Positions 1,158 to 18,044 of a DNA stretch of 55,392 nt are shown one piece after another (the stretch's first letter is position 1; each line of letters starts with the position of its first letter). Below the pieces are notes generated by a model. The model did not search any database. It was not told where the DNA came from and worked only from the letters and a program-made list of their open reading frames with translations. The position numbers and the translations under genes were made by a program. The DNA is from Oscillospiraceae bacterium (GTDB lineage: Bacteria; Bacillota; Clostridia; Oscillospirales; Ruminococcaceae). The stretch is taken from contig JAFQIY010000039.1 of assembly GCA_017415165.1 (NCBI GenBank), forward strand, positions 1 through 55,392, in the 5' to 3' direction.

Positions 1158-2512
1158 AGAGAGTTGTCTGTGGATACTCTGCGTTGCATTATGTGATTTA
1201 TGAGCACGGACATAACGGACATGAAAAGCGAAACGCAATGCTTACAGCAATAAATATGTGCAGAAAAGTTCCGTATGAAATACAGATGAACAGGTATTGG
1301 CGCAGAGCAAGGTCAAATCATAAAATACAGATTATTGCAATAGTGCAGTCCTTTTCAAAGAAAGAATTTGACCCCAAGAACGAGGGCGACATTCTTAAAG
1401 CAAATCAAGTGGGACAGCAGCTTGTGAATGAACATTTCAAAGGCAGACAGGCATTGGTCTGCACACAGATTGATGGCAAGAAAGGTTACGTTCATAATCA
1501 CATTCTTATCAATGATGTTTCAATGATTGATTTGAAGGGTTGTACAAAACAACAGTATTATTACAAGAACATTGAGATATGGACAGATGAAATCACACAG
1601 GAGTATACCATACTCGATTTGGGTGAGAAAAACGCCGAGGAAAAGGTAACACGAACAGAACGTGCGAAACGTGAAAAGGGCGAGTATGTATACAGAGATG
1701 ACATACGGGAACGTGTGCTGGCAGCGATGAAAAATTCCGCAAGTGAGGAAGATTATTTTCGCAGGTTAAGTAAGAACGGTATTGGCGTAAAAAAGAAAAG
1801 CTCTCCGAAGTACGGAGAGCATTATGTGTATGAGCTTCTGGATTTTTCTAAAGTTCCCGAAGGAACAAAGCTACCCAAGCACGGCAATCGTTCCGCACGT
1901 TCATACAGGCTTGGAACACTTTACGGACCTGAAGCACTTCAAGTGGAAATTGAACGTTTTAATCGGATTATGAAGAAGATTGAAGAGGAAGGAACATTTA
2001 CACTTGATATATCAATCGATATGCCGACAACAACGGTTAAGATTGAGAAAGAAACTGTTCAGCCTACAGCTGTTACTGCAGCTGAAATATCATACGAAAC
2101 TGTATCAGCACCCGTTGAAATTGAAGCTGAAGAACAGGAATTTGAATATGTACCCAAACACAAAAAGTCTGTTACAGATGAAGGAAAAACGGAAGAAGAA
2201 ATTACTGTAACTGCACCTGTTTCGCAGGTTGAAGTCCAGCGAGCTGGAGCCCAGCTTGAACAGCAGATGGTTGCTCCGCCTCCGATTGTTGATGATGAGG
2301 AGGACAATGACGATGAAATCGTCAAGGAAGTGGAGAACTATGCGAAGCGGGAAAAATCGCAGGAAAACTTTTTTGCAAAGGTTCAAAGAAAGTTTAAGGA
2401 AAAGAAGGAAAGCAAGCATAGGAATCTTTCAAATAGGTTTAGAAATTTGCCACTTAGTGGTGTTTCGGAGGATTTGGATAAGGAGAAGGATGATAGGGAT
2501 TTGGGTGGTTAA
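1139..2512 (+). CDS. Relaxase / mobilization nuclease
   Basis: A protein of 457 residues. The N-terminal 250 residues form the relaxase domain. QSFSKKEFD near residue 70 and GYVHNHILIND near residue 120 match the metal-binding HxxxHNH-type motif of MobP-like relaxases, which nick one strand at oriT and lead it into the recipient. The C-terminal half is low-complexity, rich in Glu/Val/Thr, and ends in an acidic run followed by a basic tail (KVQRKFKEKKE), typical of relaxase tails that contact partners. No coupling protein or type IV secretion genes are in the window, so the element is probably mobilizable rather than self-transmissible, unless those genes lie to the left. Confidence 0.88.
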   Translation: MAYSSVKRVVCGYSALHYVIYEHGHNGHEKRNAMLTAINMCRKVPYEIQMNRYWRRARSNHKIQIIAIVQSFSKKEFDPKNEGDILKANQVGQQLVNEHFKGRQALVCTQIDGKKGYVHNHILINDVSMIDLKGCTKQQYYYKNIEIWTDEITQEYTILDLGEKNAEEKVTRTERAKREKGEYVYRDDIRERVLAAMKNSASEEDYFRRLSKNGIGVKKKSSPKYGEHYVYELLDFSKVPEGTKLPKHGNRSARSYRLGTLYGPEALQVEIERFNRIMKKIEEEGTFTLDISIDMPTTTVKIEKETVQPTAVTAAEISYETVSAPVEIEAEEQEFEYVPKHKKSVTDEGKTEEEITVTAPVSQVEVQRAGAQLEQQMVAPPPIVDDEEDNDDEIVKEVENYAKREKSQENFFAKVQRKFKEKKESKHRNLSNRFRNLPLSGVSEDLDKEKDDRDLGG

Positions 2513-2991: not shown

Positions 2992-3063
2992 ATGAGATAC
3001 GCTGTTGTGGATGTAGAGCGGATAAATTTGTACGATAAAAATGATTTGGGGGTATGGGTGTGA
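2992..3063 (+). CDS. 23-codon small ORF upstream of MazF gene
   Basis: ATG at 2992 is preceded by CGGAGG (7-bp spacing) and reads 23 codons to TGA at 3061-3063. The encoded peptide starts MRYAVVDVERINLY. Its stop overlaps the GTG start of the MazF gene as GTGA, a typical translational-coupling junction. It may be a real small protein, a leader controlling toxin translation, or the remnant of an antitoxin. It is too short to place in a family. Confidence 0.45.
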   Translation: MRYAVVDVERINLYDKNDLGVWV

Positions 3064-3881
3064 CTGAAAGAATATGTAAACGTGGCGATGTATATTATGC
3101 TGACCTTGACCAGAATGCTGTTGGCAGTGAGCAATATGGAGTAAGGCCTGTTATTGTACTTCAGAATGATAAAGGAAATCTTTTTTCTCCCACAGTAATA
3201 ATCGCAATAATTACCACAAAGCATAAGAGAAATATGCCCACACACGTTGAGTTCAGAAATTACAGTATATTGAAGGAACCGAGCGTTATCTGTCTTGAAC
3301 AGATTAAAACTATTGACAAGTCAAGACTTGGAACGTATCTGGGTAATGCGGGTGCAGCACTTATGAATAAGGTAAATAAGGCTGCGGTCGTAAGTCTGGG
3401 AATGAGCGAGGGAACGCTTGAAGATATTGATGATGTTGATGATACGGAAGAACAGGAGTGCGTACATATGGATATGGTAAAGAGAAAGACAGTATTTGAT
3501 AATTTTGATAACAATGTTGATGGATGGATTGAGGTTGCAAAACAGCAGATGTTGTTCTTTTCCGATATTCAGCAGCACATCATAAATCTTAAAATAGAAA
3601 AAGAAACGCTTGATAATGAAATCGAGTGTATTTTATCATTTATTGAAACGACAACCTATAATGTTGCACAGGGTTACAAGGTTTATAAGATATTAAGAGA
3701 TAAGAGCTCCCACCGTAAGAAACTAAAGAAAGAAATTGACCAGCTTGAAGCACTGGTTGGGAATTTTGATTGCTCGGAAATGAGAAGACTTTATCAGAGT
3801 GCAGTTGGTAAAATGCAACACGCTTTAAGCACTTATGAAATTCCTGATTCTATAAAGGAACTTATGGAAGAAGCGGTGTAA
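3060..3881 (+). CDS. MazF/PemK-family endoribonuclease toxin with C-terminal coiled coil
   Basis: A protein of 273 residues from GTG 3060. An ATG at 3054 is possible, but its GGGGG ribosome site would be only 1 base away, against 7 for the GTG. Residues about 6-115 are a MazF fold: RGDVYYADLDQNAVGSEQYG with the conserved substrate-loop Gly, then RPVIVLQND, and a core ending QIKTIDKSRLG. MazF enzymes cut mRNA at short motifs. Ordinary MazF is about 110 residues. Here about 150 extra residues rich in Lys/Glu/Leu heptads follow, predicted to be coiled coil. No conventional antitoxin gene is adjacent. The extension or the upstream small ORF could serve that role, but this is inference. Confidence 0.8.
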   Translation: MTERICKRGDVYYADLDQNAVGSEQYGVRPVIVLQNDKGNLFSPTVIIAIITTKHKRNMPTHVEFRNYSILKEPSVICLEQIKTIDKSRLGTYLGNAGAALMNKVNKAAVVSLGMSEGTLEDIDDVDDTEEQECVHMDMVKRKTVFDNFDNNVDGWIEVAKQQMLFFSDIQQHIINLKIEKETLDNEIECILSFIETTTYNVAQGYKVYKILRDKSSHRKKLKKEIDQLEALVGNFDCSEMRRLYQSAVGKMQHALSTYEIPDSIKELMEEAV

Positions 3882-4118: not shown

Positions 4119-4136
4119 CATTGCGGGGTGAGGTAT

Positions 4137-4715
4137 ATGAACAGGGAGATTTATGCAACTGACGGTGAGTATACGCTATGTCCGATTACAAAGGAAGATA
4201 TAAAATATTACTACCCGGATGCGTATAGTATGATAGATGATGAAGATTTACCATATATGAGTAATATACTATGGAAAAGGTTAATGACAGAGGGAAATAG
4301 GGTATACTTAATATTTGATGACAACTCAGAATACTGTGGGAGTATAGAGTTGCAGCACCCTGATGATGATACACCTGAAATTGGTATAGATTTGTTGAAA
4401 AACAAACGAAATAAAGGTATTGCTACAAAAGTTGTCAAGTTGCTTGCAAGGAAAGCATATGAAGAAAAAGCTGTTGAGTATTATCTTATACGTATACACT
4501 CAAAAAATAGTCATAGCAGACACGTTTTTGAAAAAATGGGTGCAGTTCTAATCGGTGACGAATGTACTTTTTATGACCGTTTTATAAGTTCCTTGAAAGA
4601 TGAAGGTGAAAGCGAACTGTTAGAATATATACAGAAAAGATTTGATAATAGTTCAGATGGTGAAAAATCAGTTGTATACAGATATAAATTAACACCGGAT
4701 ATATTCAACAAGTAA
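4137..4715 (+). CDS. GNAT-family N-acetyltransferase (copy 1)
   Basis: A protein of 192 residues from ATG 4137, preceded by GGGTGAGG. The GNAT core is visible in order: the beta strand CGSIELQHP, the acceptor-side EIGIDLLKNKRNKG, the acetyl-CoA pyrophosphate loop (residues about 88-98, RNKGIATKVV) and SRHVFEKMGA, a normal C-terminal GNAT helix. The family moves acetyl groups from acetyl-CoA to amines on small molecules or proteins; the substrate cannot be told. A second, broken copy follows directly, and the start regions (including the ribosome site) are almost identical, showing tandem duplication. Confidence 0.8.
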   Translation: MNREIYATDGEYTLCPITKEDIKYYYPDAYSMIDDEDLPYMSNILWKRLMTEGNRVYLIFDDNSEYCGSIELQHPDDDTPEIGIDLLKNKRNKGIATKVVKLLARKAYEEKAVEYYLIRIHSKNSHSRHVFEKMGAVLIGDECTFYDRFISSLKDEGESELLEYIQKRFDNSSDGEKSVVYRYKLTPDIFNK

Positions 4716-4777
4716 TTACTACCAGGGCAATTTATGAAAAAATCTATAATGAAAACGGAAATGTGAGGGTGAGTTAT

Positions 4778-5368
4778 ATGAATAGGGAAATTTATGCTAC
4801 TGACGGTGAGTATACGCTATGTCCGATTGCAGAGGAAGACAGAGAAATATATTGTGAGCTAAGCAAGCAGGTTTCGGAAAATCCGGAGTTGTATTATGAG
4901 CATATAAGTAAAAAAAGCATATGGAGTACGGTTTTATATATGTCGGATAAGAATTACTCCATATTTGACAGAGACGGTGATTATTGTGGCAATGTTTCGT
5001 TGCAGCGTCCCGAATCTAAAGAACCTGAAATAGGCGTTGATTTGATGGAGGAAAACGAAATAAGGGTATTGCTGCAAGAGCAATAAAGATGCTTGCCCAA
5101 AAGGGCATATGAAGAAAACGGCTATGAAAGCTTTACTATAAGAGCTTTGGAGAAAAATACCCATAGCAGACATATGATAGAAAAACTTGGTGCGGTACTT
5201 GAAAATAAGGAAAACCCATACAGGCGTAGGATAGATAATTTGCTGAAATCAGCAGAAAAAACTGAATGTGAAGATACAAAAAAATGCCTGATAAAAACTG
5301 CTGAAGATTTTGAACAGTGTACAGAAATTGCGTATGTGTACAGGTATATGCCTGATATGTTTATATGA
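4778..5368 (+). pseudogene. GNAT-family acetyltransferase (copy 2), two frameshifts
   Basis: Paralogue of the preceding gene, with the same first 15 residues (MNREIYATDGEYTLC) and the same ribosome-site context. The original frame stops at TAA 5084-5086. Alignment to copy 1 shows the cause: one A appears lost in the A-run near 5059 (expected NENKGIA), and one C appears gained near 5097, where the frame returns to read KRAYEENGYES and continues to 5368. The two changes compensate, but the segment between them meets a stop, so a full protein cannot be made. Both lie in homopolymers, so sequencing error is possible. Confidence 0.8.
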
Positions 5369-5571: not shown

Positions 5572-5600
5572 TTGAAAATTAGATATATATATGCTATAAT
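5572..5600 (+). promoter_or_regulatory. Sigma-A promoter of the defence operon
   Basis: TTGAAA (5572-5577) and TATAAT (5595-5600) are separated by exactly 17 bases, in a very AT-rich 225-bp gap. The first start codon of the seven-gene defence operon is 36 bases downstream. No other gene is supported in 5411-5635. Confidence 0.8.
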
Positions 5601-5635
5601 CAGATATAATTGATATTTAGCTTCGGAGGTATTTT

Positions 5636-5845
5636 ATGAGAGTATGTTATAACAAAATGTGGAAACTACTTATTGATAGAAAGATGACAAAGGCTGATAT
5701 ACGAAGAATGACTAACCTTTCGAGCTGTACAATGACTCGTTTAAATCGTGATGAACCAGTATCTTTGACTGTTATGTTAAAAATTGCAGAAGTTCTACAT
5801 GCTGATATAAGCGATTTATGTGAATTTGTAAGCTCGGAGGCGTAA
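5636..5845 (+). CDS. XRE-type helix-turn-helix regulator
   Basis: A protein of 69 residues that is almost only a Cro/C1 helix-turn-helix domain: NKMWKLLIDRKMTKADIRR, then NLSSCTMTRLNRDEPVSLTV as recognition region, then MLKIAEVLHADISDLCEF. It starts at ATG 5636 after GGAGG. It is the first gene after a consensus promoter, and its stop is two bases before the helicase start. Such small XRE proteins often control restriction-modification operons, keeping nuclease expression low until methylation is established. Autoregulation is inferred. Confidence 0.85.
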   Translation: MRVCYNKMWKLLIDRKMTKADIRRMTNLSSCTMTRLNRDEPVSLTVMLKIAEVLHADISDLCEFVSSEA

Positions 5846-5847
5846 TT

Positions 5848-8800
5848 ATGAAGTTACCTAAAATTATAGATAACAAGAAGAATGGAAAAGTTGTTACTGA
5901 ACTTCGAGAAAATGTTATAAAAGGGTCCAAACTTTCCATAATATCTGCTTACTTTACTATATATGCGTATGCCGAACTAAAAAAAGAGCTTTCAAAAATT
6001 GATAAGCTCAGATTTCTGTTTACAGAACCGTCCTTTGTAAAATCAGATAATGAAGTTCAGCGAGAATTTTATATCCAGCATAATGAAAAGAATATTTCCG
6101 GCAATGAGTTTGAAATGAAGCTCCGTAATGAAATGCGCCAATCCGCTATTGCCAAGGAATGTGCAGAGTGGCTTTTAAAAAAGGCTGAAATAAAGTCATT
6201 GAAAAGAGAAAACCCTGCCCAGCCTCGTCTGATACATATTGATAATGGCGATGATAGTATTTGCATAAATGGTTCTGTTGACTTTACAACTGACGGTTTA
6301 GGAATAACCCCCTCAAATCGAATTGACTCAAACACCTGTATGTATGGGAACGAATTTACATCAGTATATTTACAGATGTTCGATGAACTCTGGAACAATT
6401 CTGCTGCGGTGGAAGATGTCAAGGAAAAGGTTCTTGAACATATGCAGGTGCTTTATAAAGAGAACACACCTGAGTTTATCTACTTCATAACTCTTTACAA
6501 TGTATTCAGGGAATATCTCGGCGAGCTTACCGAAGATAATATTGTGAAGACCAAAACAGGCATTAAGGAAACCCTCATTTGGAATAAATTATACAAATTC
6601 CAGCGTGATGGTGTTATTGGTGCTATTGATAAGATAGAACGATATAACGGCTGTATCATTGCCGATAGTGTTGGTCTCGGAAAAACATTTACAGCTCTCG
6701 CAATTATTAAATATTATGAACTTCGCAATGACCGTGTTCTTGTACTTACTCCTAAAAAGCTTCACGATAACTGGGCTGTATATACCCGAAACGACAAGAG
6801 AAATATTTTTGTTTCCGACAGATTCAATTATGATGTTCTTAATCATACCGATTTAAGCAGAACAAGTGGTTATACTGGCGATATTCCTCTTGAAACAGTA
6901 AACTGGGGTAACTATGACCTTGTTGTAATTGATGAGAGTCACAATTTTAGAAACAATCCTCCCGTTAAAGGCAGAGTAACACGCTATGAGCGTCTGATGA
7001 ATGAAATTATTAAGTCAGGTGTAAAAACAAAGGTGCTTATGTTGTCCGCTACACCTGTAAATAATCGTATGAACGATATAAAGAATCAGATTGCCTTTAT
7101 TACAGAAGGAAAAGATACAGCATTATCTGGTGTAGGTATTGCAAGCATTGAACAAGTATTGAAGAAGGCACAGACTGTATTTAACAGATGGTCAGAACTT
7201 TCTGATGCAAAGCGCACAACGGAAAGCTTTGTTGAGATGATGAATGTTGATTATTTCAAGCTACTTGATACGCTTACTATAGCTCGTTCGAGAAAGCACA
7301 TCGAAAAATATTATGATTCATCTGAAATAGGTAAATTCCCCGAAAGAAGAAAGCCTGATAATGTTTATGCTGATATTGATACGCTTGGAGAATTTCCTCC
7401 TATTGAAAAGGTGAATAAGCAGATTAAAAAGCTGACATTAGGTCTGTATTCTCCGCTTTCTTATGTTCTTCCAGAAAAGCGTGCAGAGTATGAGCGTAAA
7501 TACGATATGTCGGTAGGTTCGGGCCAGTCTGTATTCAAGCAGGCAGACCGTGAAGCAAGCCTTATCGGACTTATCCGTGTGGGACTGCTTAAAAGAATGG
7601 AAAGCTCCATATACTCTTTTGCTTTAACTATTGAAAAGATACTCGGACGTATTAAAGATACTATATCTATTATCGACAACAATCAGTATGATATAGGCGA
7701 TAATATGAGTATTGAGGATATTGACCTTGATGAAAACGACCTCGACAATATGCTTTTCGGCAATAAAGTCAAGGTTTTACTTCAGGATATGGATTTAGTA
7801 AAGTGGCGTCAGCATTTGTCTGATGATGCTGAAAAATTACAGCTTATCCTTGATGATGCAAGAAAAATCACTGTTGAACGTGATGCAAAGCTTCTTGAAC
7901 TGAAACGGATAATCAATCATAAAATCGATAACCCTATAAATACAGGAAACAAAAAGGTTATTGTATTTACAGCCTTTGCAGATACGGCAAATTATCTTTA
8001 CGACTGCTTATCTGAGGAACTGAAAAATCGTGGTATTTACTCTGCTATTGTAACAGGTGCAGGCAATAACCGCTCTACTTTACCCGTGGGCAGAGAGTAC
8101 AAAAACAGTATAAGATTGACCGACCTTAATACTGCTCTTACGCTGTTTTCACCTAAATCAAAGGAATGTGCAAAGATATATCCCGAAATGCAGGGCGAAA
8201 TCGATGTGCTTATTGCCACAGACTGTATTTCCGAAGGTCAGAATTTACAGGACTGCGATTATCTTATCAACTATGATATTCACTGGAATCCTGTCCGCAT
8301 TATACAGCGTTTCGGACGAATTGACCGTATCGGCTCTTCAAATGCAGAAATTCAACTTGTAAACTTCTGGGCGATGAAAGAACTTGACGATTATATCAAC
8401 CTTGCTCAGCGTGTAAAGGGACGAATGGTTCTTTTGAATGTTTCCGCAACTGGCGAAGAGGACTATATCGAAGAAAACGAAAGCAAGGAAATGAAAGACC
8501 TTGAATATCGTAAAAAGCAGCTCCAGCAGTTACAAACTGAGGTTGTTGACCTTGAAGAGATTTCTGGTGGTATTTCTATCACCGATGTTACATTCAATGA
8601 CTTCAAAACAGACTTGATGGAATACATGAAAAATCACCGCAAGCAGTTAAGCAACGCCCCGACAGGACTTTATGCTGTAACTGATATAGACGAAAGTCTG
8701 CGTGATGCAGTTAAGCCCGGTGTGATATTTACTCTCCGTCAGATTCAGGGTAAGGAGCAGACAAAAGAGCAAAATCCTCTGTATCCGTTTTATCTTGTAT

Positions 8801-9114
8801 ATATTACTGATGACGGTGAAGTCAAGCTGTCATATTTACAGGTTAAACGTATTCTTGATTATTATAAAAAGTTGTGCTGTGGTAAAAATCAAGTGCTTAC
8901 AGAGCTTGTTGCCGAGTTCAACAAGGAAACCGATGACGGTCACGATATGAAAAAATACTCCGACTTGCTTGAAACGGCAATTCAGGAGCTTATCGGCAGA
9001 AAGCAGGAAATCGGTGTTGCAAGTCTTTTCAGCAGAGGCGGAACAACTATGCAGACCGCTTTCTTTGACGGTATTGAGGACTTTGAACTTATAACATTTC
9101 TTGTGTTAAGATAA
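5848..9114 (+). CDS. PLD-like domain plus SNF2-type helicase
   Basis: A protein of 1088 residues. Residues 1-200 look like the phospholipase-D-like domain found on defence helicases. The motif region RLIHIDNGDDS...INGS.DFTTDGL keeps the Gly-Ser of an HKD motif but lacks the usual Lys, so nuclease activity is uncertain. A complete SF2/SNF2 motor follows: ADSVGLGKTFTA (motif I), VVIDESHNFRN (II, DESH), LMLSATPVNN (III), VIVFTAFAD (IV), LIATDCISEGQNLQ (V) and QRFGRIDRIGS (VI). Such enzymes move along double-stranded DNA. The long C-terminal region (about 250 residues) is helical. It is first in a type III restriction operon, so it probably adds a DNA-remodelling or nuclease step, which is inference. 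Confidence 0.88.
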   Translation: MKLPKIIDNKKNGKVVTELRENVIKGSKLSIISAYFTIYAYAELKKELSKIDKLRFLFTEPSFVKSDNEVQREFYIQHNEKNISGNEFEMKLRNEMRQSAIAKECAEWLLKKAEIKSLKRENPAQPRLIHIDNGDDSICINGSVDFTTDGLGITPSNRIDSNTCMYGNEFTSVYLQMFDELWNNSAAVEDVKEKVLEHMQVLYKENTPEFIYFITLYNVFREYLGELTEDNIVKTKTGIKETLIWNKLYKFQRDGVIGAIDKIERYNGCIIADSVGLGKTFTALAIIKYYELRNDRVLVLTPKKLHDNWAVYTRNDKRNIFVSDRFNYDVLNHTDLSRTSGYTGDIPLETVNWGNYDLVVIDESHNFRNNPPVKGRVTRYERLMNEIIKSGVKTKVLMLSATPVNNRMNDIKNQIAFITEGKDTALSGVGIASIEQVLKKAQTVFNRWSELSDAKRTTESFVEMMNVDYFKLLDTLTIARSRKHIEKYYDSSEIGKFPERRKPDNVYADIDTLGEFPPIEKVNKQIKKLTLGLYSPLSYVLPEKRAEYERKYDMSVGSGQSVFKQADREASLIGLIRVGLLKRMESSIYSFALTIEKILGRIKDTISIIDNNQYDIGDNMSIEDIDLDENDLDNMLFGNKVKVLLQDMDLVKWRQHLSDDAEKLQLILDDARKITVERDAKLLELKRIINHKIDNPINTGNKKVIVFTAFADTANYLYDCLSEELKNRGIYSAIVTGAGNNRSTLPVGREYKNSIRLTDLNTALTLFSPKSKECAKIYPEMQGEIDVLIATDCISEGQNLQDCDYLINYDIHWNPVRIIQRFGRIDRIGSSNAEIQLVNFWAMKELDDYINLAQRVKGRMVLLNVSATGEEDYIEENESKEMKDLEYRKKQLQQLQTEVVDLEEISGGISITDVTFNDFKTDLMEYMKNHRKQLSNAPTGLYAVTDIDESLRDAVKPGVIFTLRQIQGKEQTKEQNPLYPFYLVYITDDGEVKLSYLQVKRILDYYKKLCCGKNQVLTELVAEFNKETDDGHDMKKYSDLLETAIQELIGRKQEIGVASLFSRGGTTMQTAFFDGIEDFELITFLVLR

Positions 9115-9123
9115 GGAGCGGTT

Positions 9124-9834
9124 ATGGATATTTACGATAAACTGAATATTCCCGATGAATGTAAAATCAGCCGTACTGTATTCAAGAAGATGTTCTATGA
9201 AAACGCTGCTCTTTCCAAAGGCGACAAGGATTTGTTTGTTGATTCCATAGACAAGATAACGTGGATTTATTGTCTTAATCAGGAGAATATGAACATTTCA
9301 GCATATACTACTGAGGAACGTGAGTACCTTGAAATCGAGGTTATGGAAGTAGTCCTTAGCGAGAATAAGGGAATAAAGCGTATTGCGGAAATTATTATGC
9401 GTGCTATTCCATATCCTATGATGCTGATATTCAGCTTTGAGGGCAAATATCAGCTGTGGACGGCTCATCAGCGTTTTAACCTTGCGGATAACAATAAAAT
9501 CACCCTTGAAGAGCCTATCTGCACCGAATGGCAGGACGCAGACAGCAACTTATGGGACAGGCTTAATATCAGTAATTTCCGATATACCAACTTTTTTGAT
9601 ATGTATTCGGATATTGTCGATGCAGTTGCTGTTTTCAATGCGGAAAAGCTTACTGATGAGGAAATCAGTGGTGAGGAAGCCCGTGAGCTGTTACGCAAAA
9701 ATGCTGAGATTGATAATCAGATTGCCGCTTTGCGTGCGGAGCTTAAAAAGGCTACCGAGTTTAATAAGAAAATGGAAATCAATATGAAGATTAAGAAACT
9801 GGAAAAGGAAAGATTTTATGGAAAGTTTAGTTGA
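9124..9834 (+). CDS. DUF4391-family protein
   Basis: A protein of 236 residues whose layout matches DUF4391: an N-terminal start such as LNIPDECKISRTVFKKMFYE, a central strand-rich part with EREYLEIEVMEVVL and YPMMLIFSFEGKYQLWTAHQR, and a C-terminal coiled coil (RELLRKNAEIDNQIAALRAE). DUF4391 proteins have no known activity, but from memory they lie between a PLD/SNF2 helicase and a type III methyltransferase in many Firmicutes. Here it sits exactly there, 9 bases after the helicase. It overlaps the next gene by 17 bases. A role in assembling or regulating the restriction complex is plausible only by context. Confidence 0.75.
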   Translation: MDIYDKLNIPDECKISRTVFKKMFYENAALSKGDKDLFVDSIDKITWIYCLNQENMNISAYTTEEREYLEIEVMEVVLSENKGIKRIAEIIMRAIPYPMMLIFSFEGKYQLWTAHQRFNLADNNKITLEEPICTEWQDADSNLWDRLNISNFRYTNFFDMYSDIVDAVAVFNAEKLTDEEISGEEARELLRKNAEIDNQIAALRAELKKATEFNKKMEINMKIKKLEKERFYGKFS

Positions 9835-10399
9835 TGTTCTTGTGGAGTTTGTAAAAAAATTCCGTTTTATTGAGTTTGTTCTGAGTGTAACAATAGTACT
9901 TGCTATGATGATTATTCCAACAATAAACTTTTTGAGTTTTATTATGCCGTTAGATGATAGAACTGATTGGATAATTTTTGTATTTTGTGTTTGTTTAACA
10001 TATCTCTTAATATTACTTGTTAAAAAGATTACTATTTATCTAAAAGAAAGAAAAAGACAATCTAATGAAAAGAAAAAGAAGCAAGCAATTCTTTTACAAA
10101 ATGAAGAAGTCAAAAATAAACATCAGATTGATTTGTATGAAATGTTGGATGAAACTAAGAAAATATACATAGATAATGCATTTATAAAAAAAGGTAATGT
10201 TCCTCAACGGTTACGTATCGACAATGATTCGATAATTTATTTAATAAAAACAAATATAGCATTATATTATTCGGATACATTAGAGAACGTTGAAGATAAA
10301 AAAAACGGTAAATATTATAATAGCTATATGTGTTATTTGAGCCCTGTTATATATGACTATATAAAAAATAAGGAGGACACCCAAAATGCCAACACTTAA
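9818..10399 (+). CDS. SieB-like two-TM membrane protein
   Basis: A protein of 193 residues. Two hydrophobic helices (about residues 19-42 and 50-68, the latter WIIFVFCVCLTYLLILLV) are followed by a Lys/Arg-rich stretch and a soluble C-terminal domain that begins IDLYEMLDETKKIYIDNAF. This order of two TM helices, basic linker and a small domain with a D-E-K motif resembles superinfection-exclusion protein B (SieB) family members, but the match is by pattern only. The gene is clearly more AT-rich than its neighbours and overlaps both (17 and 14 bases). It looks inserted into the restriction operon and could give membrane-based phage exclusion or sensing. Confidence 0.5.
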   Translation: MESLVDVLVEFVKKFRFIEFVLSVTIVLAMMIIPTINFLSFIMPLDDRTDWIIFVFCVCLTYLLILLVKKITIYLKERKRQSNEKKKKQAILLQNEEVKNKHQIDLYEMLDETKKIYIDNAFIKKGNVPQRLRIDNDSIIYLIKTNIALYYSDTLENVEDKKNGKYYNSYMCYLSPVIYDYIKNKEDTQNANT

Positions 10400-12305
10400 C
10401 GGAAATTCCCTTGATTTACTGGAAGAAAACATAAAAAATCTCCGTCAGCTGTTCCCTGAAGTGGAATGTGACGGAAAGATTGACTTTGATATGCTCCGTC
10501 AGATACTTGGCGAGTATGTTGACGATGACAAGGAGCGTTACAACTTCAAATGGAACGGTAAAGGCAAAGCCTTACGCTTTTCGCAGACACCCTCAACAGG
10601 TACTCTCCGTCCTTGCAAGGAAGAAAGCAAGGACTGGGACGATACACAGAATCTCTATATTGAGGGCGATAACCTTGAAGTGCTGAAAATATTGCAGAAA
10701 AGCTATCACGGCAAAATCAAGATGATTTACATAGATCCGCCCTACAACACAGGCAATGATTTCGTCTATCCCGATAATTATCACGACAGCCTTGAAAACT
10801 ACAAGGCTATTACGGGGCAGACTGACGAAGAGGGCAACAGAATAAGCACAAACACAGAAGCAAGCGGACGTTTTCACACCGACTGGCTTAATATGATGTA
10901 CCCTCGTTTAAGGCTTGCAAGAAATCTGCTTACTGATGACGGTGTTATTTTTATTTCGATTGATGATAATGAAGTTGATAATCTCAGACGTTTATGCAAT
11001 GAAATATTTGGTGAAGATAATTTTATTGCAACATTCCCATGGAGAAAAAGAACTGCTAAATCGGATGTTCCGTTTGGCGTTTCACAAGATTATGAGTGGA
11101 TTTTATGCTATTCAAAATCGAATAATTATATTGCAAGAGTAGATGGAACTGAAAGAAAATATTATGAAACAGATGATTTTCCTAATCGTCCTTGGAGAGT
11201 CCATGATTTAACTAAGCAGACAACAGCAAGTGAAAGACCAAATAGTTATTTTACAATTGTTAATCCCCAAAACGGAAATGAATATCCAGCTAACCCAAAT
11301 AGAACATGGGCTATTACAGAAGAAACTTTTCAAAAGTATTATGCTGAAAACAGAATTGTATTTCCTGGAGATTATGATTTTTTAAATATATCCAAACCCG
11401 TATTACGTTATTGGAAAGAAGATGATATGAAAAAAGCAGGTGATATGTTTGGAATGATGCCTGCAAGTACAAAATTGCCAGAAGACATAGGTATGTCACT
11501 TGATGGCACAAAAGAAATTACAGATTTATTTGATGGCAAAGTATTTAGCTTTCCAAAAACTATAAATTTGATTAGACATTTTATTGATATGTCTACAAAA
11601 ATAGATAAAAATGCAATTATCCTCGATTTTTTCAGCGGTTCAGCAACAACAGCCCATGCTGTTATGCAGTTAAATGCAGAGGACGGCGGAAACAGACGCT
11701 TTATCTGCGTTCAGCTTCCTGAGCCAACAACAGAAGATACAGAAGCTTTCAAGGCAGGCTATAAGAATATCTGCGAAATAGGCAAGGAAAGAATAAGACG
11801 TGCAGGCGAAAAGATAAAGACTGAAATCGAAAGCGGAAACGGTCAGCTTAAATTTGATGAAGAGCCGAAGAAAGTTCCCGATATCGGCTTTAAGGTGTTC
11901 AAGCTTGATAGCTCCAATCTTAAAAAGTGGAATCCCGATTTTGATAATCTTGAACTTACTCTCGATGATATGATAAACAACTATGTTCCCGACAGAACAG
12001 AAGAGGACGTGGTCTATGAGTTTATGCTCAAAATGGGACTTGACCTTTCCTATCCTGTTGATGTTACCGAGATTGACGGCAAAAAGGTGCATTCTATTGG
12101 CTTTGGTGCATTGATGATGTGCCTTGACGATAATGTTACTGTTTCCGTTGCAGAGGGTATGGTTAAGATGTATAAGGAGCTTGCTCCCGAAACATGGAAG
12201 GTTATCTTCAAGGACGAGGGCTTTGCCGACGACTGCACAAAGACAAATATCAAGCTGACGCTTATTCAGGCAGGTCTTGAAGAAGATGCGTTTACTACGG
12301 TGTGA
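10386..12305 (+). CDS. mod: Type III DNA methyltransferase, modification subunit
   Basis: A protein of 639 residues of the beta-class N6-adenine methyltransferases. Motif IV is IDPPYNTGNDF (near residue 116), motif I is LDFFSGSATTAHAV (near residue 413), and the N-terminus resembles that of EcoP-type Mod proteins. Type III Mod reads an asymmetric site, methylates one strand, and also directs the Res subunit. The target-recognition part lies between the two motifs. That part, about 10,930-11,630, is much more AT-rich (near 25 percent GC in a 60-base line) than the flanks (near 50 percent), which suggests a swapped specificity domain. It starts after AAGGAGG and is paired with Res downstream. 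Confidence 0.93.
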   Translation: MPTLNGNSLDLLEENIKNLRQLFPEVECDGKIDFDMLRQILGEYVDDDKERYNFKWNGKGKALRFSQTPSTGTLRPCKEESKDWDDTQNLYIEGDNLEVLKILQKSYHGKIKMIYIDPPYNTGNDFVYPDNYHDSLENYKAITGQTDEEGNRISTNTEASGRFHTDWLNMMYPRLRLARNLLTDDGVIFISIDDNEVDNLRRLCNEIFGEDNFIATFPWRKRTAKSDVPFGVSQDYEWILCYSKSNNYIARVDGTERKYYETDDFPNRPWRVHDLTKQTTASERPNSYFTIVNPQNGNEYPANPNRTWAITEETFQKYYAENRIVFPGDYDFLNISKPVLRYWKEDDMKKAGDMFGMMPASTKLPEDIGMSLDGTKEITDLFDGKVFSFPKTINLIRHFIDMSTKIDKNAIILDFFSGSATTAHAVMQLNAEDGGNRRFICVQLPEPTTEDTEAFKAGYKNICEIGKERIRRAGEKIKTEIESGNGQLKFDEEPKKVPDIGFKVFKLDSSNLKKWNPDFDNLELTLDDMINNYVPDRTEEDVVYEFMLKMGLDLSYPVDVTEIDGKKVHSIGFGALMMCLDDNVTVSVAEGMVKMYKELAPETWKVIFKDEGFADDCTKTNIKLTLIQAGLEEDAFTTV

Positions 12306-12315
12306 GGTGGGAGAG

Positions 12316-12915
12316 ATGAAAAGTTTGAACAGAAAACAAAACATTCCGTCAGCAACTGTTTGTATTGACTATTTGCAAAATGCATTTACTTTGTCAGAAA
12401 TAAAAGATATGACTGAAATGTTATCTACAGAAAACTTAATATTAAAAACAAAATCGCACAGTCCAAAACATATTTTAGGTATAGATGAGTTATTTGCACA
12501 AATTTCTATTTATTTACCGCCTGATATAGTTACTTTAATATGTCAAACTGTTATTACAAGAGGAGTTTATGACTGTTTAAAAGCATTAATAATAAAAGTT
12601 TATAAATATATTAGAAACAAGCCATTTACTGAAATAAAAAATGGTGAAATAATAGAGAATTCTATTCTTAACGTGCATCTCGTAGTTGGGAATAATAAAA
12701 TAATTCTGCCAATGGCTTTGGAACAAGAGAAATTTGAATATGCGTTAGATACATTTAAAGAAGTTGTTAATGATAAAACTGTAACAACAAAACATGTTTC
12801 GAAGTATAATGAACAAACACAATCTTTTGAATGTTACGAAGAATCAGAATTTGTAATGAGAATTGCGCGAGAAGGATTAAAAAAACAGGAGGAAACCGAT
12901 GAAACTTCAATTTGA
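12316..12915 (+). CDS. Unknown 199-residue protein between mod and res
   Basis: I do not recognise this protein. ATG 12316 follows GGTGGGAG, 10 bases after the mod stop, and the 3' end overlaps res by 17 bases. A hydrophobic amphipathic part (about residues 55-95, including LPPDIVTLICQTVITRG) is followed by a strand pair (ILNVHLVVGNNKIILPM), a helix, and a Lys/Glu-rich tail. This order loosely recalls small effector-associated modules seen in some conflict systems, but that is weak. The gene is very AT-rich (about 27 percent GC in one 60-base line against about 45 in res), indicating separate origin. Confidence 0.6.
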   Translation: MKSLNRKQNIPSATVCIDYLQNAFTLSEIKDMTEMLSTENLILKTKSHSPKHILGIDELFAQISIYLPPDIVTLICQTVITRGVYDCLKALIIKVYKYIRNKPFTEIKNGEIIENSILNVHLVVGNNKIILPMALEQEKFEYALDTFKEVVNDKTVTTKHVSKYNEQTQSFECYEESEFVMRIAREGLKKQEETDETSI

Positions 12916-15865
12916 CGCCAACCTTGAATATCAGGAGCAGGCTGTTTCCTCCGTTGTTGACCTTTTCAGAGGGCAGACACCCAAGCAGTCAAACTTCACC
13001 GTTTCTATGTACGATTCAATGGGACAGGGTACATTCTTTTCCTCAACAGGTATCGGAAACAAGCTGGAGCTTGACGAGGAAGATATTCTCGATAATCTGA
13101 AAGAAGTACAGCTTAGAAACGGTCTGAAGCAGTCAACCGCTCTTGAACACGGCAAGTATGATTTTGATATTGAAATGGAAACAGGTACAGGTAAAACCTA
13201 TGTGTATCTGCGTACAATTTTTGAGCTTAATGCAAACTATGGCTTTACAAAGTTTATTATAGTTGTACCGAGTATTGCAATTAAAGAGGGCGTAAGCAAA
13301 TCCCTTGATATTACCAAAGAGCATTTCGATATGTTGTTTGATAATACTCCTTACGATTATTTTGTATATGACAGTGGAAAGCTTAGTCAGGTTCGAGATT
13401 TTGCAACTGCCGATAATATTCAGATAATGGTTATAAATATCGATGCATTCCGTAAAAGCTTTACCGACCCTGAAAAGGAAAACAAGGCTAATCTTATTCA
13501 CCGTTCCAATGATAAGATGAACGGTATGCGTCCTATTGACCTTATTGCTGAAACAAATCCTTTCGTTATCATAGACGAGCCACAATCGGTTGATACAACA
13601 CCTAAATCAAAAGAGGCTATTGCTTCTCTTAATCCGTTATGTACGCTCAGATATTCCGCTACACACGTTGACAAGCACAACTGCGTTTACAAGCTTGATG
13701 CTATCGACGCTTTTGAAATGAATCTTGTAAAGCAGATTGAGGTTGCAAGCTTTGCAACAGCGGATTATCATAACCGAGCATATATGTTGCTGAAATCCGT
13801 TGATAATAAAAAATCGCCTATTACGGCGAAAATTGAGATTGATGCACTTGTAAAAGGCGAGGTCAAGCGTAAGGTTGTTACAGTAAAGCAAGGCAGCGAC
13901 CTTTCTGAAAAGCTTTCGGGAAACCGTGCTATCTATGAGGGGTATATCGTAGATGAAATATACTGCGAAAAAGGTGAAGAATATGTAAGCTTTACTATGA
14001 AGCCTGAAATACTGCGTATAGGACGAGCTGTAGGCGATATTGACGATACAGCAGTAAAGGAGCAGCAGATACGCAAAACTATTGAGGAACATTTGAACAA
14101 GGAGCTTATTCTCAGCAGTAAGGGTGTTAAGGTCCTCAGCCTGTTCTTTATCGACAGGGTTGCGAATTATCGTTATTACGACGATGACGGTGTAGCTCAT
14201 AAGGGCAGATATGCAGAACTTTTTGAAAAGCACTATAAAGAGCTTATTCAGCGTCCAAAATACAAAAAGCTGATTGATGCAGGAATAATCAGCGATGATG
14301 AAACTGTTGTACACAACGGTTATTTCTCGGTTGACAAGAAAGGTGTTTTCAAAGACACAAATGGCAATACCACTTCCGATGATGACGCATATAATCTAAT
14401 CATGAAGGATAAGGAAAAGCTGTTATCCTTTGATACAAAGCTCCGTTTCATTTTCTCACATTCTGCTCTTCGTGAAGGCTGGGACAATCCTAACGTGTTC
14501 CAGATTTGTACCCTCAATGAAACTAACAGCGACATAAAGAAACGTCAGGAAATAGGACGAGGACTGCGTTTATGCGTTAATCAGACAGGAGAACGCCTAT
14601 ATGGCTCGTCGATAAACACTCTTACTGTTATGGCAAATGAAAGCTATGAAGATTTTGCGAAGAAATTACAGAAGGAATACGAAACAGATGAAGGTATCCG
14701 TTTCGGCTTTATTGAGAAGCATACATTTGCAAATATTACTGTTACAGATGAAAACGGTGAAGTAAGCTATCTCGGTGCAGAAAAGTCTGCGGATATCTAT
14801 AAGGTATTTGAAGAAAAGGGATATATCGATAATAAAGGCAAGGTTCAGGATAAACTGAAAAAGGCTCTTAAAGATAATACTCTCGAAGTTCCCGATGAAG
14901 TTAAAAATAGTTTGCCTGCAATTACTGCTGTATGTAAGAAAATCAGTGGCAATCTTAATATCAAGCCTGCTTCCGAAAAGAAGTCGATAAGTCTTAACAA
15001 GCAGATTTATCTGAATCCTGATTTCAAAGAGCTTTGGGATAGGATAAAGTATAAAACATCATATTCTGTATCCTTTAAAAGTGAGGAGCTTATAAGAAAA
15101 TGTAGCGAGGAAATGAAAGCTAATCTCAGTACAAGTTCGGCAAAGCTTATCTACTCCAAAGCGGAACTTAAACACACAGCAGGCGGTCTTGAAACAACCG
15201 AAAAGGTACATACTGCTGTTTTATCAGGAGAAGAAACACAGTTACTCCCTGACATTGTTACATATTTGCAGGCGAATACAAGCCTTACACGCCGTACTCT
15301 TGTTGCTATTTTAAAAGATAGTGGTACGCTTGATATGTTCAAAAAGAATCCTCAGCGTTATATGGAGGATGTCAACAAAATCATTTCTGCAAATATGAAA
15401 GCAATGCTTGTTGACGGTATCAAGTATACTAAGTTGGGCGATGATGAATATTACGCTCAGGAGCTGTTTGATACAGAAGAACTTACAGGATATTTAGAGC
15501 ATAATATGATTGAAGCTCAGAAGTCTGTTTATGAGTATGTAGTATATGACAGTGACAACGAAGCAGAATTTGCTAAGAAATTTGAAGCAAATGAAGATAT
15601 AAAGCTGTATGCAAAGCTTCCTGACTGGTTTAAAATTTCCACTCCGCTTGGCTCGTATAATCCCGACTGGGCTGTTCTTATCGAAAAAGATGGTGATAAA
15701 AAGCTTTATTTTGTTCTCGAGACAAAGGCAAATGTAAGCGAACAGACTCTTCGTCAAACCGAGTATCAGAAAATCAAATGTGGCAGAAAACATTTTGAGG
15801 CTCTTGGGAATGATGCTATTTACGAAGCTACAGATGATTTTAATAAATTTGTAGAAAGCATATAG
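12899..15865 (+). CDS. res: Type III restriction endonuclease, Res subunit
   Basis: A protein of 988 residues. The motor has METGTGKTYVYLRT (motif I, near residue 96), VIIDEPQSVD (motif II, DEPQ), LRYSATHVD (III) and EIGRGLRLCVN (VI), all in SF2 order. The C-terminus has a PD-(D/E)xK nuclease signature: YNPDWAV followed by LYFVLETKAN near residue 930. Together with Mod it forms the complex that cuts between head-to-head unmethylated sites after ATP-driven communication along DNA. Length fits the family (about 970-1000). It is the last gene of the defence operon, and no key motif appears damaged. Confidence 0.93.
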   Translation: MKLQFDANLEYQEQAVSSVVDLFRGQTPKQSNFTVSMYDSMGQGTFFSSTGIGNKLELDEEDILDNLKEVQLRNGLKQSTALEHGKYDFDIEMETGTGKTYVYLRTIFELNANYGFTKFIIVVPSIAIKEGVSKSLDITKEHFDMLFDNTPYDYFVYDSGKLSQVRDFATADNIQIMVINIDAFRKSFTDPEKENKANLIHRSNDKMNGMRPIDLIAETNPFVIIDEPQSVDTTPKSKEAIASLNPLCTLRYSATHVDKHNCVYKLDAIDAFEMNLVKQIEVASFATADYHNRAYMLLKSVDNKKSPITAKIEIDALVKGEVKRKVVTVKQGSDLSEKLSGNRAIYEGYIVDEIYCEKGEEYVSFTMKPEILRIGRAVGDIDDTAVKEQQIRKTIEEHLNKELILSSKGVKVLSLFFIDRVANYRYYDDDGVAHKGRYAELFEKHYKELIQRPKYKKLIDAGIISDDETVVHNGYFSVDKKGVFKDTNGNTTSDDDAYNLIMKDKEKLLSFDTKLRFIFSHSALREGWDNPNVFQICTLNETNSDIKKRQEIGRGLRLCVNQTGERLYGSSINTLTVMANESYEDFAKKLQKEYETDEGIRFGFIEKHTFANITVTDENGEVSYLGAEKSADIYKVFEEKGYIDNKGKVQDKLKKALKDNTLEVPDEVKNSLPAITAVCKKISGNLNIKPASEKKSISLNKQIYLNPDFKELWDRIKYKTSYSVSFKSEELIRKCSEEMKANLSTSSAKLIYSKAELKHTAGGLETTEKVHTAVLSGEETQLLPDIVTYLQANTSLTRRTLVAILKDSGTLDMFKKNPQRYMEDVNKIISANMKAMLVDGIKYTKLGDDEYYAQELFDTEELTGYLEHNMIEAQKSVYEYVVYDSDNEAEFAKKFEANEDIKLYAKLPDWFKISTPLGSYNPDWAVLIEKDGDKKLYFVLETKANVSEQTLRQTEYQKIKCGRKHFEALGNDAIYEATDDFNKFVESI

Positions 15866-16005: not shown

Positions 16006-16074
16006 GTAAACAATAAACCCGAAATTACACCCAACATAAATAGGTTCTTTTGTTATTGAGTTGGGTTCACCAAG

Positions 16075-16108
16075 AAAATCCTCGAAACTATGTGGTTTCG
16101 AGGATTTT
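16075..16108. terminator. Bidirectional terminator between res and integrase
   Basis: AAAATCCTCGAAAC (16075-16088) and GTTTCGAGGATTTT (16095-16108) form a perfect 14-bp stem with A/T runs on both sides. It serves the convergent defence operon and integrase gene. Confidence 0.9.
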
Positions 16109-16120
16109 TCTTTTTATAAG

Positions 16121-16168: not shown

Positions 16169-17266
16169 TTATCCCGTCAAAATTTCTTTGAAAATATCCT
16201 GCACCATTGCTGCTGTTTCGGACATATCTCCGTCCATTTCGTGGGAGTACACGCCGTAAGTATCCATATCCTTTGAATGCCCCACAAGCTGTTTGAGATA
16301 ACCCTCAGGAAGCGTTTTTACAGCTGATACAAAAGTGTGGCGAAGTTCGTAAGGTGTAACATGCGGCATATTGTGATACTCACGGTATCGTTGCCAGTTA
16401 TCTTTATAGGTGGCACTGCGTATCGGGTCGCCGTATTTATCGCTGAACACATAGTCACTTACGATATTATTTTCTTCCTGAAGCTGTTTTTGCTCATTAA
16501 GCAAGGCAGAGGTAAAAATGTTGAGTGCAAAATTTCTTTGTGCGTTGTGGTTCTTGCCCGTTGTAGTTTCGCCGAGAATGTTGATTGCTCTGCGGAGGTA
16601 CACAGTTCCGTTTCGGATGTCGTTCCATTTCAGACCGATAAGCTCTCCAGGGCGGAGTCCCGTCAGAACGTGGAAGCGGTACGCATAAATAAACATATCA
16701 GCTTTAGGCTTGTTTCTGTAGGTTGTCATATTATCTGCAAACAATACCTTCAAGTGAGCAGGTTGCAGAATTTGCTTTTCTCCGACCTTTGCGTCCTTCG
16801 GAATAGTCAAGTCCTCAGGCAGTAGGGTAGTAAGCTTATTCTTGCGGCAGTATTTTATAAATGCTACAAGGCAGGCACGCAAGTTCATCAGCGTTTTCTT
16901 TGCAAGTCCAGTGCCGTAAGAACGGTCAATAACGTCCTGAAGGTGCTGTTCGTTGATGTTCTCAACACGAACATTGCCTATATACGGATTGATTTGATTT
17001 TTGAAAAAGCATTCGTATTTCATCCAGTGACTTTTTGAGGTGGAGAGCTTCAGGCTCTCAATGTACTGTTCAGCAGCTTGTCTGACTTTGATTTTGGTGT
17101 TGTTGATGCCGTCATCGAGCCACGCATCAGCCTTTGCGTTTGCTTCTCGCTGTCCCATTCTGCCCGGAGTGGATGATGTGAACGTCTTTCTTATACCGTC
17201 TTTCTGTACATTGATTTGCCAGCGATTGCGGGATTCAATCCATTGTGCCGTGTTGGTACGTTTCAT
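16169..17266 (-). CDS. int: Tyrosine recombinase (element integrase)
   Basis: A protein of 365 residues from ATG 17266, chosen because AAGGAG lies 7 bases upstream. An N-terminal arm-binding part rich in basic residues is followed by a SAM-like core-binding domain (residues about 60-150) and the catalytic domain: LTGLRPGELIGLKW (first Arg), TPYELRHTFVS (His-x-x-Arg box), LVGHS, and MDTYGVYSHEM with the likely nucleophile Tyr. It integrates and excises the element. It reads leftward, and its first 32 bases overlap the end of the PadR-operon membrane gene, so the right attachment junction probably lies just upstream of its ribosome site. Confidence 0.9.
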   Translation of the reverse strand: MKRTNTAQWIESRNRWQINVQKDGIRKTFTSSTPGRMGQREANAKADAWLDDGINNTKIKVRQAAEQYIESLKLSTSKSHWMKYECFFKNQINPYIGNVRVENINEQHLQDVIDRSYGTGLAKKTLMNLRACLVAFIKYCRKNKLTTLLPEDLTIPKDAKVGEKQILQPAHLKVLFADNMTTYRNKPKADMFIYAYRFHVLTGLRPGELIGLKWNDIRNGTVYLRRAINILGETTTGKNHNAQRNFALNIFTSALLNEQKQLQEENNIVSDYVFSDKYGDPIRSATYKDNWQRYREYHNMPHVTPYELRHTFVSAVKTLPEGYLKQLVGHSKDMDTYGVYSHEMDGDMSETAAMVQDIFKEILTG

Positions 17267-18044
17267 AGGCATACTCCTTGAAATAATCGTCTTTGACAGC
17301 AATTGTCATAATTGCAAGTGCGGCAACACTAACAAGGATTGCTCCCGAAAGACAAGGTGCGTAAAGCGAAATAAGTGCAGGTGGAGCAACAAGCACAAAA
17401 CAGCTTAATACAAACCATTTGAAATTTTTTCCGCGCATTGAAAAAACAAATCCGCACATCAGCGGCACGAGAAGTGCTGACCCATAAAAAGCAAAATGTC
17501 CTGAAAGTGTATTTCGGAATGCAATTGTTACCCATTCAGCGCCGCTTACATTTGCAATATTAGCTCTGCCTACATTCCAAATCACTATAACTGCGAGTAA
17601 CAGCGTAAAAGCAGCATAAGCAGTTTTAGGCTTGCGAACAAGAATTGTATAATCGACAAAATAAAACAGCAATGCAGCTGCTATGCAGATAATTGCATTG
17701 GGAATATCACTGTTTATGAAAACATTATAAGCAGGCGGAAATGCAAAAAAGCCTTCTCCCAAATGCCGTGCAATAATACCTGTGAACAGAAGAATTAAAG
17801 AGGGGAGAAAAACGGCTAAAGGAAAGCTTGGACGGTGTGCAGAGTCAAGTCCCACACCGGCTTCAACAGGGTCACCCATTGTTTTTACAGCTTCTTCCTC
17901 AGCATTTTCTTCAGGAAGTCCGACGGCAATAAAGGCTTCTGCCTGCTCGTCAATGTGTGATGCAAGTTCAGCCTTCAATGGTTCGTGAACAGCTTTGCAC
18001 CTAACCTGTTCAAGTACGGTATTGATATATTCATCCTTTTTCAT
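17235..18044 (-). CDS. Permease-prefix-domain membrane protein, probably truncated
   Basis: A protein of 269 residues. Residues 1-70 (DEYINTVLEQVRCK...EEEAVKTMGDPVEAG) are the cytoplasmic prefix domain found on permeases encoded beside PadR regulators. About six transmembrane helices follow. The last 10 or so residues (YAYETYQHGTMD) are encoded inside the start of the integrase gene and do not look native. From family memory, such proteins often continue into an FtsW-like or other membrane domain. I infer that the element inserted here and cut off the 3' part, which would lie left of the window. It overlaps PadR by 4 bases (ATGA). Confidence 0.7.
   Translation of the reverse strand: MKKDEYINTVLEQVRCKAVHEPLKAELASHIDEQAEAFIAVGLPEENAEEEAVKTMGDPVEAGVGLDSAHRPSFPLAVFLPSLILLFTGIIARHLGEGFFAFPPAYNVFINSDIPNAIICIAAALLFYFVDYTILVRKPKTAYAAFTLLLAVIVIWNVGRANIANVSGAEWVTIAFRNTLSGHFAFYGSALLVPLMCGFVFSMRGKNFKWFVLSCFVLVAPPALISLYAPCLSGAILVSVAALAIMTIAVKDDYFKEYAYETYQHGTMD

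Follow-up and report, generated by a model that had tools for sequence, protein, structure and literature searches.

Several components of the locus studied here have counterparts in described systems. PrrC, which is embedded in a type Ic locus (PrrC-EcoPrrI), acts as a second line when restriction is blocked (passages of PMC12707154 and PMC3710099), and BREX and related loci carry backup nucleases, with an HKD+Snf2 helicase in type-2 BR (excerpts of PMC12839542). Motors that combine HKD and superfamily 2 (SF2) helicase parts are found in the CxC/Pbe modification systems (passages of PMC10853773), a portion of PMC2292703 refers to HKD-bearing helicases of the type III kind, and ARMADA and its kin are built on YprA-family helicases according to excerpts of PMC12458937. 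Here we report on an operon in the genome of an Oscillospiraceae bacterium, located on contig JAFQIY010000039.1 of assembly GCA_017415165.1; the 55,392-nucleotide stretch that was analyzed is referred to as the window. Four of the seven genes of the operon, encoding an SNF2-type motor, a DUF4391 protein and the type III subunits Mod and Res, form a conserved core that is co-inherited in a fixed order. No description of this four-gene core was found among the matches listed from the open-access literature, which is not proof of novelty, and DUF4391 came up in one paper of the literature searched, as a table entry (in the accessible part of PMC7784981).

An initial annotation, made from the letters of the window, had proposed that the seven genes act together as an extended type III system and had named the co-inheritance of the helicase and DUF4391 genes with mod and res as a check, which proved positive. 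We searched 299 genomes of the window's phylum with a helicase model (E ≤ 1e-60) and a Res model (E ≤ 1e-40), recovering the helicase in 21 genomes, Res in 41 and DUF4391 in 25; none of 14 control genomes contained DUF4391. The helicase and DUF4391 occurred together in 19 genomes, compared to 1.8 expected if they were independent, and DUF4391 shared 24 of its 25 genomes with type III Res (3.4 expected). The six DUF4391 genomes that gave no helicase match (G042, G153, G159, G230, G248 and G298) represent contig ends or broken copies. Two genomes matched the helicase model without DUF4391 (G253 and G261, with 581 and 220 bits to the PADLOC HKD+Snf2 model); their open reading frames (ORFs; L101 and L102) gave no match to the motor profile, and L101 was also without a Pfam helicase at the expected place.

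Gene order was read from loci selected for DUF4391, taken from the 299-genome draw, from a class draw (291 genomes, 18 DUF4391-positive, G000 included), from plasmid records (15 of the 46 that matched) and from the genome contigs L002 and L003. This set comprises 59 parsed loci; L003 and L062 stayed unparsed, the profile having found no DUF4391 in them, and L218–L220 stand outside the 59. Fifty of the 59 loci carried the complete core on a single strand, arranged motor–DUF4391–mod–res. The exceptions are remnants, loci cut by contig ends, and L113 and L119, where DUF4391 stands alone; L113 lies near ABC-transporter genes. The same four genes were present on plasmids of an archaeon, Actinomycetota, Pseudomonadota and Thermodesulfobacteriota, with Methanomethylovorans (the archaeon), Mycolicibacterium, Desulforapulum (where Res is cut to 156 amino acids (aa)) and many Pseudomonadota as hosts, and the core is spread from archaea to gut bacteria. 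Of 20 other genomes in the window's genus, one contained DUF4391, and the core genes of that locus (L218) follow the same order. An independent set of 80 viral-contig loci was obtained by searching with the motor profile, 79 of them being confirmed by the profile; a scan of the viral contigs with a single DUF4391 protein as query gave no match. In 64 viral-contig loci the stretch continues for more than 800 bp past the motor. Of these, 53 had DUF4391 within 600 bp, 4 more had it overlapping or after an insert, and 5 had a large methyltransferase instead; L163 and L212 had neither.

The seven ORFs of the operon (5.6–15.9 kb) all lie on the plus strand and overlap or nearly touch, as had been annotated. 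Positions are collected in Table 1, in which slot B denotes the DUF4391–Mod junction and slot C the Mod–Res junction. The junctions are, in gene order, +2, +9, −17, −14, −29 or +10, and −17 bp; the fifth is −29 if the 199-aa orphan ORF starts at 12277, where it opens with TTG, and +10 if it starts at 12316, a position preceded by a GAGGTGGGAG stretch and probably the gene start. A Shine-Dalgarno-like stretch was judged by eye to stand upstream of each of the seven genes. A high-scoring promoter-like site precedes the operon, and it ties for the top score with one minus-strand site. Such sites are barely commoner in the region than in shuffles (41 observed, compared to 37.8), and the site by itself therefore proves nothing. 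Terminator-like sites are no commoner than chance (6 observed, 6.9 in shuffles). Family assignments of the operon proteins were made with Pfam and PADLOC models on mechanically called ORFs, and they agree with the identities first given for XRE, DUF4391, Mod and Res. The XRE position is occupied in some relatives by small helix-turn-helix (HTH) genes or WYL genes. The stretch of the orphan gene, first described as AT-rich, is not markedly so, the GC content at 12–13 kb being 0.354 compared to 0.353 and 0.386 in its neighbours.

Table 1. Positions of the operon, of the presumed carrying element and of neighbouring genes in the window
Feature	Position	Strand	Description
MobA/VirD2-like relaxase of presumed carrying element	1139..2512	+	E 5.8e-12
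PemK/MazF-type toxin gene	3054..3881	+	E 1.5e-27
GNAT acetyltransferase region	4128..5368	+	second copy over ORFs 4763..5086 and 5093..5368
Promoter-like site	5572..5600	+	TTGAAA, 17, TATAAT; extended -10 (TG before second hexamer); score 11/12
XRE/Cro-type regulator, 69 aa	5636..5845	+	HTH_26, E 3.7e-15
Core gene 1, SNF2-type SF2 motor, 1088 aa	5848..9114	+	PADLOC HKD+Snf2 model, 444 bits
Core gene 2, DUF4391 protein, 236 aa	9124..9834	+	E 2.6e-68
Slot B cargo, SieB-like protein, 193 aa	9818..10399	+	PF14163, E 0.0011
Core gene 3, type III Mod, 639 aa	10386..12305	+	730 bits; DPPY before FSG motif
Slot C cargo, orphan protein, 199 aa	12316..12915	+	no family match
Core gene 4, type III Res, 988 aa	12899..15865	+	SF2 motor and PD-(D/E)XK nuclease; 1138 bits
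Terminator-like stem-loop after res	16074..16109	+	16-pair stem
Tyrosine integrase of presumed carrying element	16169..17302	-	Pfam

The mod and res genes have the sequence features of a type III system, a kind of enzyme that needs ATP and two inverted sites to cleave and that methylates one strand. Mod is an N6/N4 methyltransferase with DPPY and FxG motifs, Res joins an SF2 motor to a C-terminal PD-(D/E)XK nuclease, and the two genes are adjacent on the same strand, with one cargo gene between them in the window. Residues D923, E941 and K943 of Res account for 100% of the letters in their columns (59 aligned Res), as does DPPY in Mod (60 aligned Mod), with loci without DUF4391 included in both alignments. 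The only match of Res among solved structures was the restriction subunit of EcoP15I (chain 4zcf_C, E 5.7e-64). The operon is rare in Escherichia coli, where 10 of 5,426 complete genomes matched, 9 of them over at least 80%. Compared with L034, a natural cargo-free form on an E. coli plasmid, four other E. coli copies were 98.6–99.3% identical in the motor and 90.8–99.1% in DUF4391, and three were 99.8–99.9% identical in Res, the Res of the fourth being broken by an insertion sequence. Identity of Mod to L034 falls to 18–34% at residues about 250–400 and is 76–100% from about residue 400. Judged from these alignments, the presumed target domain of Mod is exchanged while the motor and Res stay constant.

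The first core gene had been annotated as a PLD/SNF2 helicase, of which the SNF2-type motor was confirmed and the PLD part was not. HKD (PLD) nucleases carry the motifs HxK and GSxN/F. The PADLOC HKD+Snf2 match spans nearly the whole motor; its N-terminal part, however, is a degenerate, PLD-like HKD region that has Q and R in place of the catalytic H and K and is without the HKD motifs, and Pfam gave no PLD match to the window motor. In an alignment of 49 motors, 254 positions were at least 93% conserved, the ATPase motifs included (the Walker A lysine is K279 in the window motor), whereas the HKD columns varied freely. We scored the HKD state in 122 motors in all. It was intact in one (L041) of the 110 motors whose stretch also carries DUF4391, Mod or Res, L043 being a second but false regular-expression hit with T at the H column, in all five motors beside a large methyltransferase, and in one of the seven others, the distant L212. 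The five methyltransferase-linked motors form one side of a fully supported branch of the motor tree. The HKD nuclease of the motor thus looks dead, and the possibility of an active PLD nuclease was rejected because the HKD residues are lost.

Few residues of the DUF4391 protein are near-invariant (in the widest alignment, P10 and K21), which argues against its being a conserved enzyme. AlphaFold2 with 58 sequences returned a confident model (predicted local distance difference test 95.7, predicted template-modelling score 0.89), in which a mixed alpha/beta domain precedes a helical hairpin at the C-terminus. Comparison with solved structures returned two coiled-coil matches only, the better at E 0.055, and a likeness to a solved structure was rejected on that value. 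A sister architecture was observed in L179, L182, L184, L185 and L192, where an HKD-intact motor stands with a large methyltransferase that has a DUF4391-like N-terminus. Pfam identifies the proteins of L179 and L192 as Eco57I/N6 methyltransferases that carry a TaqI-type target domain, and the other three share the N-terminal region with them, L182's being cut by a contig end. The region matched the DUF4391 profile in five of five proteins, and profile–profile comparison with hhalign gave 91.5% at E 8.5e-7 over 91 columns. Because the DUF4391 domain is separate beside Mod and fused into the methyltransferase in the sister systems, it is best read as a putative coupling piece between methyltransferase and motor. 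A RecF/AAA-like gene comes next in three of the five sister loci (Pfam checked in L192 only), and the sister architecture is possibly an undescribed restriction system of its own.

The junctions of the core differ in how often they hold further genes. With gaps of more than 150 bp taken as the threshold for cargo, both sets of loci together gave 6 of 116 motor–DUF4391 junctions (one due to a broken motor), 41 of 110 DUF4391–Mod junctions and 27 of 101 Mod–Res junctions; 69 of 110 slot B and 74 of 101 slot C junctions were without cargo (gap ≤150 bp). After the motors were thinned at 90% identity, the counts were 4 of 88, 30 of 82 and 19 of 75, and slots B and C differed from the motor–DUF4391 junction with Fisher p values of 1.6e-7 and 1.8e-4, respectively. 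The core order survives thinning of near-copies, although the statistics weaken. In locus-slots with an ORF of at least 60 aa, cargo lay on the operon strand in 61 of 64, and in 43 of the 61 same-strand locus-slots it overlapped or came within 30 bp of both neighbours. The 83 cargo ORFs, counting those of three slots with opposite-strand ORFs only, fell into 66 clusters at E ≤ 1e-3.

Fifty-five cargo proteins, including the window's two, were hand-picked for comparison with Pfam, and 34 of these passed the curated cut-off, many as members of conflict-system families; six scanned proteins (from L003, L058, two from L205 and one each from L199 and L208) are outside the 83 cargo ORFs. Slot B yielded TIR (L045, L114), SIR2 with HerA (L044), AAA_13 with DUF4145 (L048), a trypsin-like peptidase (L051), Schlafen AlbA (L052, L206), SieB (L058), YhcG nuclease (L109), UvrD (L131), OLD with DUF2130 (L132), reverse transcriptase (L137), GmrSD (L175) and AAA with subtilase (L193). 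Slot C yielded RhuM (L045, L047, L048, L111), Fic (L051), GmrSD (L127), Schlafen (L126), PLDc (L146), Abi_C (L187) and TIR (L208). A family of 223–225 aa recurs in slot C of L144, L145, L148, L151 and L154 with 53–100% mutual identity; the one member scanned, that of L144, had no Pfam match, and the family is a candidate new effector. Cargo was found more rarely between the motor and DUF4391 (L164, L174, L199, L205, L208). The insert of L205 (L205:13157-16880) encodes an OLD-TOPRIM ATPase and a UvrD helicase, a Gabija-like pair. Among the fetched Res loci without DUF4391 on the stretch, L086 also has RhuM between mod and res and L085 a gap of 810 bp, while the remaining mod-then-res loci of this kind have gaps of at most 73 bp; slot C is not peculiar to the four-gene variant.

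The SieB-like and orphan genes of the window are cargo in slots B and C. They are not conserved at these positions, and the notion of one seven-gene system was rejected on these grounds. The SieB-like protein has two hydrophobic 19-residue segments and scores 19.1 bits to PF14163, for which the cut-off is 26; in L058, slot B is occupied by a clear SieB (E 3e-20). No relatives of the SieB-like protein were found in phages or among the fetched loci. The orphan had no relatives in plasmids or in 119 other genomes, and E values of its matches among the fetched loci were 0.58 or higher.

We interpret the operon as a type III variant in which DUF4391 couples a nuclease-dead motor to Mod and Res, with exchangeable backup effectors in the two main slots, a reading that we hold with modest confidence, at slightly better than even chances. 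The DUF4391 protein would act as an adaptor through which the motor attaches to Mod or Mod-Res, and this second motor may translocate on or remodel unmodified foreign DNA while Res cuts. Mod would protect self DNA, and an exchange of its target domain could leave the motor and Res as they are. The cargo, here the SieB-like membrane protein and the orphan, might provide backup immunity upon evasion of restriction, similar to PrrC in its type I locus. Judged by kinship, these parts probably function jointly in phage defence. Several results weigh against this interpretation. Type III Res occurred without DUF4391 in 17 of its 41 genomes, showing that Mod and Res exist without the front pair, and the lone DUF4391 genes of L113 and L119 had no motor, Mod or Res within about 10 kb on each side. 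The Res tree (43 rows, unsure labels removed) required 7 changes in the presence of DUF4391, all forced by supported branches, and 77 of 500 label shuffles were as low, suggesting that the front pair has often been gained or lost relative to the Res lineage, as an add-on rather than a Res subunit. In L041, HKD persists next to Mod-Res, the Res nuclease motif being kept too, and the HKD state changes twice on the motor tree, so that the pattern stems from few events and not from many independent ones. Two Pfam matches of the sister N-terminal region to DUF4391 (E 0.001, score 19.5; E 8.6e-5, score 23.0) are below the cut-off of 29.9. The contrast between junctions was weak when motors were thinned to below 70% identity (4 of 44, 13 of 42 with p 0.015, and 10 of 40 with p 0.077), slot C not differing significantly from the first junction. 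Our probability estimates were not altered by this, because both larger sets and the 90% thinning agree.

The frequency of type III systems without the pair, and a Res tree that interleaves both kinds and hardly differs from shuffled labels, would suit an alternative in which the motor and DUF4391 have a defence or regulatory function of their own, as a pair that shares a promoter with an ordinary type III system and merely travels with it. We consider this unlikely, since the pair was found almost only ahead of Mod/Res (the slot B gap was measurable in 56 of 59 loci, one miss being a contig end), the sister architecture has a DUF4391-like domain inside the methyltransferase, and the nuclease residues of the motor are gone where Mod/Res is present, L041 excepted. 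The pair could also monitor restriction as a sensor and set the cargo effectors free, with Mod-Res as the guarded line of defence. The location of cargo inside the core, the effector-like nature of much of it (TIR, SIR2, Schlafen, reverse transcriptase, OLD, proteases) and the precedent of PrrC are in keeping with a sensor; yet the pair is kept although most junctions are cargo-free, and the RhuM gene of L086 shows slot C cargo in a type III locus without the pair, leaving this alternative with a similarly low probability. It is quite unlikely, in our estimate, that the slots are selfish landing sites whose cargo is a passenger with no functional tie to restriction. The extreme diversity of the cargo and its rarer presence between the motor and DUF4391 would be consistent with passengers, but its shared strand and mostly tight spacing, as well as the many conflict-system families among the hand-picked proteins, argue for a tie.

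Building on the type III variant with DUF4391 as the coupler, we tentatively raise a stronger version, to which we give a rather low probability: the operon could be an immune chassis, in which the motor–DUF4391 pair licenses cleavage by Res and controls the slot effectors, and which is re-armed by the module and re-aimed by swapping the Mod target. If so, TIR, SIR2-HerA, Gabija-like, reverse transcriptase, Schlafen or protease modules would be dropped into one type III operon. The four-gene core would make genes annotated as 'hypothetical' beside type III systems recognisable as a widespread defence architecture, and it gives DUF4391 a testable role. The motor suggests a route by which a helicase-nuclease partner in restriction may be reduced to an accessory motor, its own nuclease dead, when another enzyme takes over the cutting. 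The slots could act as a search trap for new effectors, any occupant being a candidate defence gene, and control of embedded genes by restriction-modification (R-M) becomes testable by comparing cargo-free and cargo-bearing forms of the same core.

The operon is likely carried on a mobilizable element, as first annotated, because genes for a relaxase and a tyrosine integrase are present on either side of it. The left end of the element is not seen since the window is the whole contig, and repeat analysis of the window revealed no clear attachment site. The PemK/MazF-type toxin gene encodes 275 aa in total with a long C-terminal extension. The GNAT acetyltransferase gene is followed by a diverged second copy over two ORFs, and this region contains an 80-nt direct repeat (89%). 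In two E. coli plasmids (L222 and L224) the operon adjoins repA, a LAGLIDADG homing endonuclease and a 5'-3' exonuclease gene, and these neighbours suggest phage-plasmid carriers.

The operon was also compared with other known systems. DISARM is defined by DrmA, DrmB and DrmC plus a methyltransferase. Its class 1 (DrmD) resembles the operon in having an SNF2-type helicase that adjoins a DNA methyltransferase, but the motor scores 142.5 to DrmD, compared to a cut-off of 610, DrmA appeared only as a weaker hit of the motor (84.9 bits), and neither DrmB nor DrmC was among the matches listed; with similarity confined to the motor, membership of DISARM was rejected. BREX and BREX-related systems feature PglZ or a DUF499/BrxC-type ATPase with a PglX-type methylase. 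The window motor also matches the BrxHI/BrxHII helicase models, at up to 100.8 bits, and diverse effectors (OLD, HEPN, Schlafen, GmrSD, PD-(D/E)XK) stand beside or within the core of BREX and related loci too (excerpts of PMC12839542). The core here, however, is Mod/Res and its HKD is degenerate, and no PglZ was among the matches listed for the operon proteins (for the motor, the best 25 of 44); membership of BREX was rejected, no such model being among those matches, with the flanks scanned in part. PbeABCD and CxC-ABC share an HKD+SF2 motor in a modification system (passages of PMC10853773), but the operon proteins gave no CxC ABC-ATPase or DndE hit and HKD is lost, and membership of Pbe was likewise rejected. 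Mod and Res are homologous to those of EcoP15I (Mod2Res1) with their catalytic motifs kept, whereas the classical two-gene type III systems are without the two extra core genes at the front and the inner cargo. PrrC-EcoPrrI likewise has a gene inside an R-M operon, but it holds one effector in a type I locus, whereas the fixed slots described here belong to a type III locus and take many effectors that are unrelated to one another and have a putative link to restriction.

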